From Agrococcus baldri (GTDB taxonomy: Bacteria > Actinomycetota > Actinomycetes > Actinomycetales > Microbacteriaceae): a DNA stretch of 64,000 nt. A program made the translations under genes and the position numbers. The DNA lies in the NCBI GenBank assembly GCA_007988785.1, contig BJUU01000005.1, positions 62,001 through 126,000 of the forward strand. Reading direction: 5' to 3'. Below the pieces are notes generated by a model, which was given only the letters and a program-made list of their open reading frames with translations, was not told the DNA's origin and did no database searches. Positions 25,490-29,987 of the stretch are shown piece after piece; position 1 is the stretch's first letter, and each line of letters starts with the position of its first letter.

Positions 25490-25513
25490 ATGATCGTCGG
25501 TGCTGCGTCGTGA
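25490..25513 (+). other. Seven-codon mini-ORF duplicating the acpS start
   Basis: ATG ATC GTC GGT GCT GCG TCG TGA encodes MIVGAAS. Its first codons repeat the acpS start (GTG ATC GTC GG) 20 bases downstream, and its TGA overlaps the acpS GTG as GTGA. It may be the remnant of a short tandem duplication, or a leader peptide that delivers ribosomes to acpS by coupling. The sequence alone cannot tell. Confidence 0.4.
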
Positions 25514-25875
25514 TCGTCGGCCTGGGCGTCGACGTGGTCGACCTGGCCCGCTTCGAGCGGGCGATGACGCGCACCCCGCGGCTGGGCGCGCGGCTGTTCG
25601 CCCCCGAGGAGCTCGTCGTCGACGGCGAGCCGCGCCCGATCGCCTCGCTCGCGGCCCGCTTCGCCGCGAAGGAGGCCGCGCAGAAGGCCATCGGCACCAC
25701 CGCCGGCACCCGCTGGATCGACTTCGTGGTGCTGCAGGCCGCCGACGGCAAGCCACGGCTCGAGCTGCGGGGCACCGCCGCCGAGCACGCCGCCGCGATC
25801 GGCGCGCGAGCGCTGCACGTGTCGATGAGCCACGACGCCGGCATCGCCACGGCGACCGTCATCGCGGAGTCCTGA
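25510..25875 (+). CDS. acpS: Holo-[acyl-carrier-protein] synthase
   Basis: Transfers 4'-phosphopantetheine from CoA to acyl carrier protein. A 121-residue AcpS-type protein: the metal-binding Asp8 is in [17 protein letters not shown] and the second acidic ligand is in [13 protein letters not shown]; the end is [16 protein letters not shown]. The GTG at 25510 starts the conserved MIVGLGVD and overlaps the stop of a 7-codon mini-ORF. The acpS stop overlaps the alr start (TGATG). Its substrate CoA comes from the pathway begun by coaA nearby. Confidence 0.95.
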
Positions 25876-27848
25876 TGCGCGTCGAGGTCGACACGGCGGC
25901 GGTCGCCGCCAACACCCGCGCGCTGCGCGCCCTCGTCGACGTACCTGTCTGCGGCGTCGTGAAGGCCGACGGCTACGGCCACGGCGCCGTGCGCTCTGCG
26001 CTCGCGATGCTCGAGGGCGGCGCGTCCATGCTGGGCGTCGTCGACCTGCGCGAGGCGCTCGCCCTGCGCCGGGCGGGCATCGACGCGCCGCTGCTGGCGT
26101 GGCTGCACGGCGCGAGCGCCGACTTCTCGCTCGCGGTCGCGCACGACATCCAGGTCGCCGTCTCGTCGATGGCGCAGCTCGAGGCCGCCGCCGCGGCCGG
26201 CGCGACCATCCACCTCAAGCTCGACACGGGCCTGGGCCGCAACGGCATCGCGCGCGGCGACCGCGCCGCGGCCATCGCGCGTGCCGTCGAGCTCGCTCGC
26301 GGCGGGGCGCGCATCCGCGGCATCATGTCGCACCTGGCCGGCACGGGCCGCGACGCCGACCTCGCCCAGGTCGCCGACTTCGCCGCGGCGCTCCAGCTCG
26401 CCGAGCCGCTCGGCTCCCCGGTGCGCCACCTCGCCAACTCGCAGGGCGCGCTCGCGCTGTCCGAGGCGCGCTTCGACCTCGTGCGCATCGGCATGGCGGC
26501 CTACGGCATCGACCCGAACGGGCCGGCGGCCGGCGACGGCGCGGGCGCCGCGGCGCTCGGGCTCGTGCCCGCCATGCGCGTGACGGCGCGCTTCGTCGAC
26601 GGCGTCGCCGAGGGTGGCCTCGACGACGGCCTGCTGCCCGCGATCGGCGCACCCGTGGCGGTGGCCGGCGAGCTCGCGCACGTGGTCGCGATCGGCGCCC
26701 GCCGGCTGCGCATCGAGCCGGCGCTGAGCGGCGAGGGCGTGCTGTGGGGCGACCCCGCCGCCGAGCGGCCCGAGCCCAGTGCGGACGCATGGGCCGCGGC
26801 AGCGGGCACGATCGGCTACGAGGTGGTCACCAGGATGGCCGCCGCGGAGCGCTCCGACGAAGCGGCCCCCGCCGACCCCGCGCTCGCGCCGCGCCGGGTG
26901 CTCGAGCTCGGCCTCGACGGCGAGCCGCAGCGGCTGCTGGGCGAGGTGATCGGCGTCAAGCGCGCCGAGGCGGGCCTCGGCATCTCCTACGGCGCCGAGT
27001 ACACCACCGAGCGCGAGACGACGCTCGCGCTCGTGGCCCTCGGCTACGCCGACGGGCTCACGCGATCCGCCACCGGGCGGCCGGTGCTGCTGGGCGGCGA
27101 GGCCCACCCGATCCGCGGCCGCGTGGCGATGGACCAGGTGGTGCTCGACATCGGCGACTGCCGCGCGAACGTCGGCGACGAGGCCGCGCTCGCCCACGCA
27201 TCCGCCCCCGAGCTCACCGGCATGATCGGCGCGCGCGTCGCGGTCGAGCTGGCCGGCACCGTGCCCGACACCGAGGCCATGGAGGCGCTGGGCGCGAGCA
27301 TCGGCGGGCAGCTGCGCGCGGGCGATGCCGTGCTGCTCATCGGCCCGCTCGGCGCCGGCAAGACCACGCTCACGCGCGGCATCGGCGCGGCGCTCGGCGC
27401 GCGCGGCACCGTGCAGAGCCCCACCTTCGTGCTCGCCCGCACCCACCGCACGGCCGCCGGCCCCGACCTGCAGCACGTCGACGCCTACCGGCTGCTCGCC
27501 GACGCCGAGGACGAGGCCGAGCTCGATGACCTCGATCTCGACCTCGACGGCGCCATCACCGTCGCGGAGTGGGGCGCGCCGCTCGAGCACGCGCTCGAGT
27601 CGTGGCTGCGGGTCGAGATCGCGCGCCCCTCCGTCGACGACGCCGACGACATCGACGACATCGACGCCGTCGACGAGTCGCCGCGCTCGGTGCGCATCAC
27701 CGGCCACGGCCCGGCCTGGGGCACGGAGCGCGTGCGCGCGCTCGCGCGGGCCGGGCACCGGGACCCGCTCCACCCAGCGGGACCCGGTGCACCGGGTCCC
27801 GTGCGGTCGAACGGGTCCCCGGGCGACGACGGAACGGAGAGGCGATGA
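25875..27848 (+). CDS. alr: Alanine racemase-TsaE fusion with a rearranged racemase C-terminal domain
   Basis: One 657-residue frame. Residues 1-235 are the Alr PLP barrel (Lys30 in [29 protein letters not shown]). Residues 240-288 look like a worn copy of the C-domain start, and 289-321 are a well-kept C-domain end ([25 protein letters not shown]). Only then comes the catalytic-tyrosine block (Tyr372 in [29 protein letters not shown], to about 437), then a degenerate stretch. Residues 463-570 are TsaE (GPLGAGKTT at 490-498, HVDAYRL, VAEWG), the ATPase for t6A formation, with an Asp-rich tail. Both active sites seem complete. No stop separates them, and the frame overlaps tsaB by ATGA. An ATG at 27222 could start TsaE alone. 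Confidence 0.88.
27779..27800. repeat. 22-base perfect palindrome in the tail of alr-tsaE
   Basis: gggacccggtg followed by its own reverse complement, perfect over 22 bases. A direct copy of the CACCGGGACCC half lies just upstream (about 27766) and a related CGGGTCCC just downstream (about 27812). It codes for the Pro/Gly-rich end of the fusion protein, so it may be a small mobile-repeat-like insertion in a tolerant tail, or an mRNA hairpin before tsaB. Confidence 0.6.
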
Positions 27849-28444
27849 ACGCGGGCAGCGCGAGCGCACGCAGCATGACGCTGGCGATCGACACCTCGCT
27901 CGGCACCTCGGTGGCCGTCGTCGACGGCGGCGGCACGGTGGTCTTCCGCGAGCGGGCCGACGACACGCGCCGGCACGCCGAGCACCTGGGCGGCATGCTC
28001 GAGCGCGCCCTCGAGGGCCGGCGCTCGGCCATCGAGCTGGTCGTCGCGGGCATGGGGCCGGGCGCCTTCACGGGCCTGCGCGTCGGCATCGCCGCCGCGC
28101 GCGCGACCGCCCTCGGCCTCGGCGTGCCCTGCCGCGGCGTCGCGAGCCACGCCGGCGTGACGACCGGCAGCGCCCAGGTGACGACGGATGTGCGGCGCAA
28201 GGAGCGCGCGTGGAGCATCGTGGTCGACGGGCTGGTCGCCGGCGGCCCCCACCTCGCTCCCGCCGAGGCGGTGCCGGCGCCGGGCGGGGCGCACGCGGGC
28301 CTCGAGCGCATCGATGCGCAGGGGGTGGACGCCGCGCTGCTGGCGCTCGCGGTCGCGCGCGGCGCCGCCGAGGTGCCGCAGGCGCTCTACCTGCGCGAGG
28401 CCGATGCCGTGCCCTCCGCGGGGCCGAAGCGGGTGAGCCGATGA
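27845..28444 (+). CDS. tsaB: t6A biosynthesis protein TsaB
   Basis: Partner and activator of TsaD in making N6-threonylcarbamoyl-adenosine at tRNA position 37. The 199-residue actin-like protein has [14 protein letters not shown] at the start and [21 protein letters not shown], the family signature. It lacks the metal histidines of TsaD, as expected. Its ATG overlaps the TGA of alr-tsaE. The region after residue 105 is shorter and less conserved than in E. coli TsaB, which is common in actinobacteria. Confidence 0.9.
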
Positions 28445-28941
28445 CCGACGAGCCAGTGAGCGAGCACGAGCGGCACGTGACCGATCGGCGCGAGGGGACG
28501 GTGCGCATCCGCACCGCCACCGCATCCGACCTCGACGCCGTCATGGCGATCGAGCTGGCGTCGTTCGGCGCGAGCGCGTGGACTCACGAGACCATGCGCG
28601 CAGAGCTCGGCAGCGAGTGGGGTCGCTACCTCGTCGCCGAGGAGGCCGGCGCCGCCCTCGGCTACGCGGGCCTGCGCGCCGTGGGCGTCGAGGGCGATGT
28701 GCAGACGATCGCCGTGGATGCCGCGGCGAGGGGCCGCGGGATCGGCCGGGCTCTGCTGGCCGAGCTGCTGGCGGAGGCCGAGCGCCGGGGCGTGCGCGAG
28801 CTCTTCCTCGAGGTGCGGGCCGACAACCCCGTGGCGCGCGCGCTCTACGAATCGGTCGGCTTCGCCGAGATCGGCGTGCGGCCGCGCTACTACCAGCCGG
28901 AGGATGTGGATGCCGTGGTCATGAAGCGGGTGCGGGCATGA
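28441..28941 (+). CDS. rimI: Ribosomal protein S18 alanine N-acetyltransferase RimI
   Basis: A GNAT acetyltransferase of 166 residues. After a charged 20-residue start come [22 protein letters not shown], the acetyl-CoA loop [20 protein letters not shown] (R-G-x-G-x-G/A), and [29 protein letters not shown], the RimI-type C-terminus. RimI acetylates protein N-termini; in actinobacteria its targets are poorly known. It overlaps tsaB and tsaD by 4 bases on each side, the common tsaB-rimI-tsaD arrangement. Confidence 0.9.
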
Positions 28942-29987
28942 AGGCGCCGGTGGTGCTGGGCATCGAGACGAGCTGCGACGAGACCGGCGTCGGCATCGTG
29001 CGCGGCACCGAGCTGCTCGCCAACCGCATCGCCTCGTCGATGGAGCTGCACGCCCGCTTCGGCGGCGTCGTGCCCGAGATCGCTGCGCGCGCGCACCTGG
29101 AGGCGATGGAGCCGACGATCCGCGCGGCGCTCGCCGACGCATCCATGACCCTCGACGACATCGACGCGGTCGCCGTCACCGCCGGGCCGGGGCTCGCCGG
29201 CGCGCTCATGGTCGGCATCGGTGCCGCGAAGGGGCTCGCGACGGCGCGCGAGCTGCCGCTCTACGGCGTCAACCACCTGGTCGGCCACGTCGCCGCCGAC
29301 GTGCTCTCCGGCGAGCCGCTCGAGCTGCCGACGATCGCGCTGCTCGTCTCGGGCGGGCACACCTCGCTGCTGCTCGTGCGCGACCTGGCCGGCGACGTCG
29401 AGCTGCTGGGCGAGACCATCGACGACGCCGCGGGCGAGGCCTTCGACAAGACCGCGCGGCTGCTGGGCCTCAGCTACCCGGGCGGGCCATCGATCGACGC
29501 GGCCGCCGCGGAGGGCGACGCGCGCGCGATCGCCTTCCCGCGCGGCCTGACCGCCCCGAAGGACCGCGAGCGGCACCGCTGGAACTTCTCGTTCTCGGGC
29601 CTCAAGACCGCCGTCGCCCGCCACGTCGAGCGCGCCGAGGCGGCGGGGGAGCCGCTGCCGGTCGCCGACGTGGCCGCGAGCTTCCGCGAGGCGGTCGTCG
29701 ACGTGCTGATCGCCAAGGCGCTCGACGCCTGCGCCGCGCACGGCATCCCGCGGCTGCTGCTGGGCGGCGGCGTGGTCGCCAACGCGCGGCTGCGCGAGGT
29801 CGCGACCGAGCGCTGCGCCGAGGCGGGCGTGACGCTGCGCATCCCGCCGCTCGAGCTCTGCACCGACAACGGGGCGATGATCGCCGCGGTCGGCGCGATG
29901 CTCGTCGCGCGCGGCGACGCGCCCAGCCCCGCCGGATTCGCCGCCGAGTCGACCCTCGAGGCCGACACCGTGCAGGTGACGGCGTGA
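28938..29987 (+). CDS. tsaD: tRNA N6-threonylcarbamoyltransferase TsaD
   Basis: Catalytic subunit transferring the threonylcarbamoyl group to A37 of ANN-decoding tRNAs. The 349 residues begin [17 protein letters not shown]; the metal ligands His113 and His117 are in [38 protein letters not shown] and [11 protein letters not shown] follow, and the last ligand Asp is in CTDNGAMIA. It starts in the ATGA overlap with rimI. With TsaE and TsaB in the same operon, only TsaC (Sua5) is missing locally. Confidence 0.96.

Follow-up and report, generated by a model that had tools for sequence, protein, structure and literature searches.

Architecture and Neighborhood of the Fused Gene

The window, i.e., the whole 64,000-nucleotide stretch of Agrococcus baldri DNA that was analyzed, carries a gene (25875..27848, +) in which the barrel of alanine racemase (Alr), a shortened Alr C-domain, a second C-domain, and a TsaE domain follow one another. 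Its frame is open throughout (657 codons plus stop), as the initial annotation had read it. The ATG shares one base with the stop codon of acpS (25510..25875, +), and tsaB (27845..28444, +) overlaps the 3' end of the gene as ATGA. With rimI and then tsaD (28441..29987, +), the cluster reads acpS-alr/tsaE-tsaB-rimI-tsaD, and the TsaE-domain gene is found next to tsaB and tsaD. The same pathway neighbors occur in the alr-tsaE-tsaB-tsaD operon of actinobacteria, described for M. tuberculosis (PMC5335608); the available part of that abstract mentions neither a fusion nor a changed racemase.

The PLP barrel (residues 1-236; 25875..26582, +) is defined by its Pfam match to Ala_racemase_N (PF01168, residues 5-214, 3.4e-50), by residue mapping, and by its placement with alr1 in the barrel tree; it contains Lys30 (codon 25962-25964, +). 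Next comes c1 (residues 237-282; 26583..26720, +), the first half of a C-domain in which the Tyr265 hairpin is deleted and the AMD motif lost, GYADG having become GLDDG (26616-26630, +). The second half of this domain, c2 (residues 283-322; 26721..26840, +), retains Ile313 and Tyr315 (codon 26817-26819, +), equivalent to I352 and Y354 in Alr numbering. A linker of about 29 residues (323-351; 26841..26927, +) leads to the second C-domain. Its first half, c1' (residues 352-436; 26928..27182, +; PF00842, 1.4e-25 for this piece), holds Tyr372 (codon 26988-26990, +), Tyr391, Arg397, Arg416, and Met419, and its second half, c2' (residues 437-462; 27183..27260, +), is shortened and devoid of the Tyr354 motif, yet conserved in the genus (79% mean identity over 15 fused genes).

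The TsaE domain occupies residues 463-590 (27261..27644, +). It is matched by PF02367 (residues 464-583, 7.3e-27) and by TIGR00150 (65.6 bits, above the cut-off of 60.1), and includes the P-loop GPLGAGKT (27342-27365, +). The tail (residues 591-657; 27645..27845, +) is variable, acidic, and Gly/Pro-rich (56% mean identity, 43% gaps). An Asp-rich acidic run follows TsaE (27635-27685), and the tail differs among sister species. A strong hairpin is encoded at the 3' end of the gene (27745-27803; -59.5 kcal/mol and z -3.1 for 27745-27835); its core, GACCCGGTGCACCGGGTC, is found at 14 genomic places with at most two mismatches, two of them exact.

Partition of the Catalytic Residues

The whole protein scores 213.3 bits against TIGR00492 (Alr), above the curated NCBIfam cut-off of 168. 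Ala_racemase_C is matched in two stretches, the best one being residues 356-442 (profile 6-94). Residues 241-321 alone match profile positions 86-119 (E 3.9e-4), under the curated cut-off of 25 bits. Among the matches listed, four alignments with PDB Alr chains order the racemase pieces as barrel, c2, c1'.

Alr active sites are shared between subunits: the barrel of one monomer meets the C-domain of its partner, with Lys39, the phosphate ligands, and Tyr354 provided by the first and Tyr265', Tyr284', and Arg290' by the second, and the dimer alone is stated to be active (PMC3245724, PMC3146814). In the fused protein, Lys30, Tyr34, and Arg204 of the barrel map to K39, Y43, and R219, and all seven barrel positions checked are retained, including Lys39 and the ligand set. 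The residues of c1' map to Y265 (Tyr372), Y284 (Tyr391), R290 (Arg397), R309 (Arg416), and M312 (Met419). Met312' is also lent by the partner subunit in Alr. Tyr265 and the entry residues are all present in one C-domain, by means of c1', but no single C-domain displays the Tyr265 block ahead of the Tyr354 block; the order is c1 (decayed), c2, c1', and c2' (decayed). This decay follows the division between own-chain and lent residues in the shared Alr site. The mapping of Tyr372 to Y265 agrees with its earlier designation as the catalytic tyrosine, and the earlier description of two C-domain copies, reciprocally decayed and fused to TsaE, is upheld.

In an alignment with the C-domains of 20 actinobacterial Alr proteins, c1 is colinear, but it lacks about 24 residues at the catalytic-tyrosine hairpin and has smaller gaps elsewhere. 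Taken without c2, it gives an hhalign score of 31.7 against the C-domain, compared with 20.6 for the best of 100 column shuffles, using a profile of 14 rows, three of which come from the second locus described below. The kinship of residues 240-321 with the Alr C-domain, on which the first reading depended, is thereby confirmed.

Over the 15 fused genes, dN/dS values are 0.33 (barrel), 0.62 (c1), 0.21 (c2), 0.66 (linker), 0.39 (c1'), 0.32 (c2'), 0.25 (TsaE), and 0.63 (tail). Every segment is under purifying selection, and c1 is the fastest-evolving of the domain pieces.

Fused and Split Forms in the Genus

Among 24 genomes of the genus, that of A. baldri included, 15 encode all parts in one frame and six encode them as two genes; the same frame is thus present in 14 sister species besides A. 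baldri. The remaining three comprise a broken frame (G018), a gene reduced to its first 62 residues at a contig end (G020), and a genome with no match that is 65% complete (G010). An assembly or sequencing artefact, in which a frameshift would have joined neighboring genes, could be suspected from the broken frame of G018, but the recurrence of the fused frame in 15 species and of the split form in six rules it out for practical purposes and leaves it a negligible probability. In G018 (locus L130), whose genome is one contig, the break in the racemase frame lies within the barrel.

In the six split species, gene A encodes barrel-c1-c2 and gene B encodes c1'-c2'-TsaE. The stop codon of A and the start codon of B overlap as ATGA in all six, near the start of the stretch that forms the linker (26841..26927) in the fused gene. 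Three of the B genes (L113, L116, and L117) align to most of c2', with the profile covered up to 355-357, and c2' is shorter in the fused gene than in these three. The catalytic positions are divided between A and B as they are between the two parts of the fused chain: K39, Y43, K129, R136, H166, S204, R219, I352, and Y354 are kept in 15/15 fused genes and in 6/6 A genes, and Y265, Y284, R290, R309, and M312 in 6/6 B genes, which have no letter at the positions from K39 to R219 or at Y354.

A barrel tree of 125 rows unites the 15 fused genes (SH-aLRT 99) and leaves the split species outside this group, which suggests that fusion is the derived state.

Structural Models and a Proposed Single-Chain Hemi-Dimer

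The model of residues 1-329 (pTM 0.86) contains strands and helices through c1-c2, with pLDDT values mostly of 57-84, and superposes on the 12 best PDB Alr chains with TMq 0.80-0.85 and an rmsd of 3.3-4.0 Å. It was built with full Alr rows, which favors an Alr-like C-domain, and the c1 blocks have pLDDT values of 57-71. Given this resemblance of the model to an Alr monomer, and the colinearity of c1-c2 with an ordinary C-domain apart from the deletion and the smaller gaps, c1-c2 would still be a C-domain in its usual place.

The model of residues 1-463 has a pTM of 0.77, with pLDDT under 50 at residues 31-35 (beside Lys30), 243-300, 319-332, and 461-463. Among the matches listed, 50 Alr chains match it over both domains with an rmsd of 14.9-19.0 Å, and because of this deviation c1' is placed elsewhere than at the monomer's own C-domain; such a placement would fit that of the partner's C-domain. 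As with the shorter model, the alignment in part favors the outcome: the rows listed have no letters over c1-c2, and the C-domains of other Alr proteins are tied to c1'.

The initial annotation had proposed that c2 and c1' form one circularly permuted but complete C-domain, c1 and c2' being debris. The chain order of the intact pieces and the fast evolution of c1 speak for such a permutation. It was nevertheless rejected, and is considered very improbable: six sister species encode the two halves as separate genes, c1-c2 is colinear with a whole C-domain in the A proteins and takes the position of a monomer's C-domain in the model, c2' is conserved (dN/dS 0.32), and the residues are partitioned in the same way at the second locus, where B precedes A and nothing is permuted.

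The preferred reading (probability of about 0.8, from sequence comparison and models) is that of a single-chain alanine racemase hemi-dimer with one active site, carrying TsaE as a tail. Only one barrel is left. Its own C-domain, c1-c2, would pack beside it and supply the phosphate tyrosine (Tyr315, equivalent to Tyr354), having lost what would be lent to a partner barrel. Conversely, c1'-c2' would act as the partner's C-domain, which keeps the lent residues (Tyr372, equivalent to Tyr265, and the entry residues) and has lost its own barrel and its own Tyr354. The barrel and c1'-c2' would then assemble one two-base active site with Lys30 and Tyr372. The fused protein is predicted not to be a symmetric homodimer with two sites.

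A variant of the hemi-dimer, compatible with its evolutionary part, would have two fused chains pairing head to tail, each c1' serving the barrel of the other, as a swapped dimer with two sites. The Alr structures covered by PMC3146814 are homodimeric, and the linker is of a length that could allow either arrangement. Nevertheless, the separated form in the sister species needs no swap, and the single-chain model reaches a pTM of 0.77, even if a one-chain model cannot show a swap; this arrangement is regarded as rather unlikely.

D-Alanine Supply in the Genome

The A. baldri genome (Microbacteriaceae; 99.8% complete) has one Ala_racemase_C (PF00842) locus, a single detected copy of TsaE, and a D-Ala-D-Ala ligase match (2.8e-65). 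No D-amino-acid transaminase exceeds the cut-off in this genome, with two weak matches below it. There are five other barrel-family matches; of the four scanned for domains, two have a D-serine-dehydratase domain, one is YggS-like, and one has the barrel domain alone, and the fifth matches at E 2e-7. On these results, the fused protein is probably the only alanine racemase of the cell. As the sole Alr found beside a D-Ala-D-Ala ligase, it would be expected to racemize alanine. In four sister genomes (G004, G009, G021, and G023), a further Alr-like gene provides another Alr candidate beside the fused or split enzyme.

That the racemase part has given up its enzymatic role, being either a decaying gene or an accessory of TsaE, could be argued from the unusual architecture and from the weak constraint on c1 and the linker. 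Such a loss of function is hardly credible, however, given the retention of all the catalytic positions checked in 15/15 fused genes, the barrel dN/dS of 0.33, and the lack of any other Alr found beside the ligase.

Tandem Loci and a Second Locus in Related Genera

A survey of sister species and other genera yielded split genes, tandem loci, B/A pairs, and one-frame forms. A tandem alr1-alr2-tsaE arrangement is found in 19 genomes from eight genera, and others have a single alr-tsaE. It shares the gene place of the fused gene, and alr2 and TsaE are in one frame at 6 of the 19 tandem loci; Clavibacter L033 is a further case of a tandem with alr2 and TsaE joined. Unlike in the fused gene, both tandem alr genes keep the barrel and C-domain catalytic positions. 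In 20 alr2 genes, the barrel catalytic set is kept throughout, except for K129 (18 genes), and Y265, Y284, R290, R309, and M312 are kept in 20/20. The position of Y354 is occupied by Asp in 18 and Glu in two, a count that is partly by construction, as Y354 also served to sort alr2 from alr1. GFADG, with Tyr284 changed to Phe, occurs in the alr1 of Clavibacter (L033) and of two close loci (L210 and L222), where alr2 and TsaE are fused.

Four A-type proteins served as queries in a search of 398 genomes of the family, and 80 high-ranking places were examined: 63 are of another kind, termed the second locus, 16 are tandems, and one is neither. These fractions are not prevalences, since the places were picked by score. 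Of the 63 second loci, 59 have separate B and A genes, three have both in one frame, and one, located at a contig end, has just A. Counting three loci identified earlier, the second locus with both parts is present in 65 genomes from 23 genera, none of which is among the eight tandem genera for the loci examined. In a class-wide sample of 296 genomes, four matches were obtained at 1e-104, a cut-off that would miss weaker relatives, and all four are in Microbacteriaceae.

At the second locus, B is the part with a dead barrel and a live C-domain, and A the part with a live barrel and a dead C-domain. The division of residues between two parts is common to this pair and to the fused gene. Unlike the fused gene, the second locus has B before A (upstream on the same strand for 63/63 A genes with a separate B), an alr2-type barrel, and Asp or Glu at position 354; moreover, no TsaE frame was seen in the second-locus stretches examined. 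Because the proteins were sorted by K39, R219, and the AMD motif, the following counts are partly by construction, and only the non-sorting positions are independent. The A proteins keep Y43, K129, R136, H166, and S204 in 67/67 cases and have I, L, M, or V at I352 in 66/67; Y265 is found in 0/67, R290 in 7/67, and M312 in 0/67, and Asp or Glu replaces Tyr354 in 66/67. In the B proteins, Y265 and R290 are present in 63/63, R309 in 61/63, and M312 in 63/63, with K39 and Y354 in 0/63. Position Y284 is less clean, tyrosine being kept in 26 A proteins and replaced by F in five B proteins. These five, in which Tyr265 is kept, are L163, L164, L167, L168, and L172. The counts omit L041 and L051 (on the same contigs as L118 and L162), as well as L129, L130, and L017, whose frames are broken in the examined stretch; in L241, the A frame is broken and one piece was sorted as 'other'.

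The B proteins differ in how much barrel they retain: L126 has a dead barrel of nearly full length, L122 (a frame of 253 aa) has a remnant, and L124 (216 aa) is a C-domain with no recognizable barrel. In L220, a complete unit with a dead barrel comes first, and a complete unit with a live barrel and a dead C-domain continues the same frame. The second locus of Pseudolysinimonas yzui (L051) lies near genes for a sigma-70 factor, a PAC2 protein, and an M17 peptidase. One genome (G267, L231) has two different B-A pairs about 5 kb apart.

Origin of the Two-Part Enzymes

Trees were built from 125 rows (first barrel tree), 116 rows (c1' tree), and 65 rows (careful barrel tree). The rows of the 65-row tree were chosen per group and partly at random, leaving out the B proteins of the second locus and two odd rows. 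In that tree, all the second-locus A barrels included join alr2 (100/99), and the genus of A. baldri (itself 100/97) is placed with alr1 (95/89). The second-locus label changes at least twice, on the branches starred in the 65-row tree. The dead B barrels group with alr1, on long branches, in the 125-row tree. On the evidence of these trees, the hemi-dimer conversion has occurred more than once, because the retained barrels fall in different paralogues (alr1 here, alr2 at the second locus). At least three conversions are suggested by the label changes in the barrel tree, as lost parts are unlikely to return.

The starting point would have been two alr genes, alr1 and alr2, ahead of tsaE. The alr2 barrel would have been lost next, the alr2 C-domain would have become joined to TsaE, and finally the ATGA stop would have disappeared, giving the fused chain; TsaE would have been carried along through the alr2-tsaE joining. 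Of the tandem C-domain duplication proposed in the initial annotation, the two copies stand, but barrel loss from a tandem alr is more likely than a duplication confined to the C-domain, because other genera still have a second alr between alr and tsaE.

Only the origin is at stake if c1' is instead a copy of the C-domain of alr1 itself, arisen by local tandem duplication. The c1' tree (81 columns) cannot tell the two sources apart (AU p 0.64 with alr2 and 0.63 with alr1). In pairwise comparisons with the tandem genes, the barrel and c2 are nearer alr1 in 20/20 pairs and c1' is nearer alr2 in 18/20, but this affinity of c1' for alr2 is partly common to the controls, as single alr1 genes (16/20) and outgroup genes (13/20) also lean to alr2 in this segment. 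On the other hand, c1' adjoins tsaE, precisely where other genera have alr2, which is already joined to TsaE in 6/19 tandems. A copy of alr1 is, thus, rather doubtful, and an alr2 remnant, left after the barrel of the second tandem alr was lost, is favored as the source of c1', although not proved.

Comparison with Known Systems and Significance

Homodimeric Alr (PF01168 and PF00842, TIGR00492) shares with the fused protein the barrel, the PLP lysine, the Lys/Tyr two-base residues, and the C-domain fold. It differs from the fused or split units, in which one barrel is accompanied by two C-domains, each with its share of the C-domain residues, and for which one active site each is predicted. 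Another fusion of Alr to a housekeeping enzyme is MurF-Alr (PRK11930, NCBIfam NF008897), but the fused gene is not a member of this family (143.1 bits against a cut-off of 804). Trypanosomatid prozymes offer a parallel: in AdoMetDC and deoxyhypusine synthase, paralogues form obligate pairs in which one partner has no catalysis. Here, unlike in the prozymes, nothing is left of the inactive partner's barrel, and a fusion of the partners followed. In the open-licence literature searched, no account of an Alr that is split, heterodimeric, or permuted was found.

A broader proposal, tentative and at somewhat less than even odds, is that within one family the symmetric two-site Alr dimer was repeatedly reduced to a hemi-dimer with one site. 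The alr1 barrel would have been kept here, before the TsaE fusion, and the alr2 barrel at least twice more, as a two-part enzyme; the alr2-type enzymes, acidic at position 354, would act on a different amino acid, perhaps the family's cell-wall diamino acid. Tyr354 is stated to affect Alr specificity (PMC3245724), so the acidic residue may change the substrate of the alr2-type enzymes. Cell-wall descriptions of Microbacteriaceae members mention diaminobutyric acid; a link with the alr2-type substrate is speculation.

The two full genes, the dead-barrel partner, the barrel remnant, the C-domain alone, and the fused chain constitute a natural series. It offers a route from a symmetric homodimer with shared sites to an asymmetric enzyme, in which the residues lost and kept are foretold by published crystal structures. 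The question of why an obligate dimer keeps two sites becomes testable on an essential cell-wall enzyme, and the Alr genes of Microbacteriaceae that consist of a C-domain only or have no AMD motif are to be read as the halves of one enzyme.
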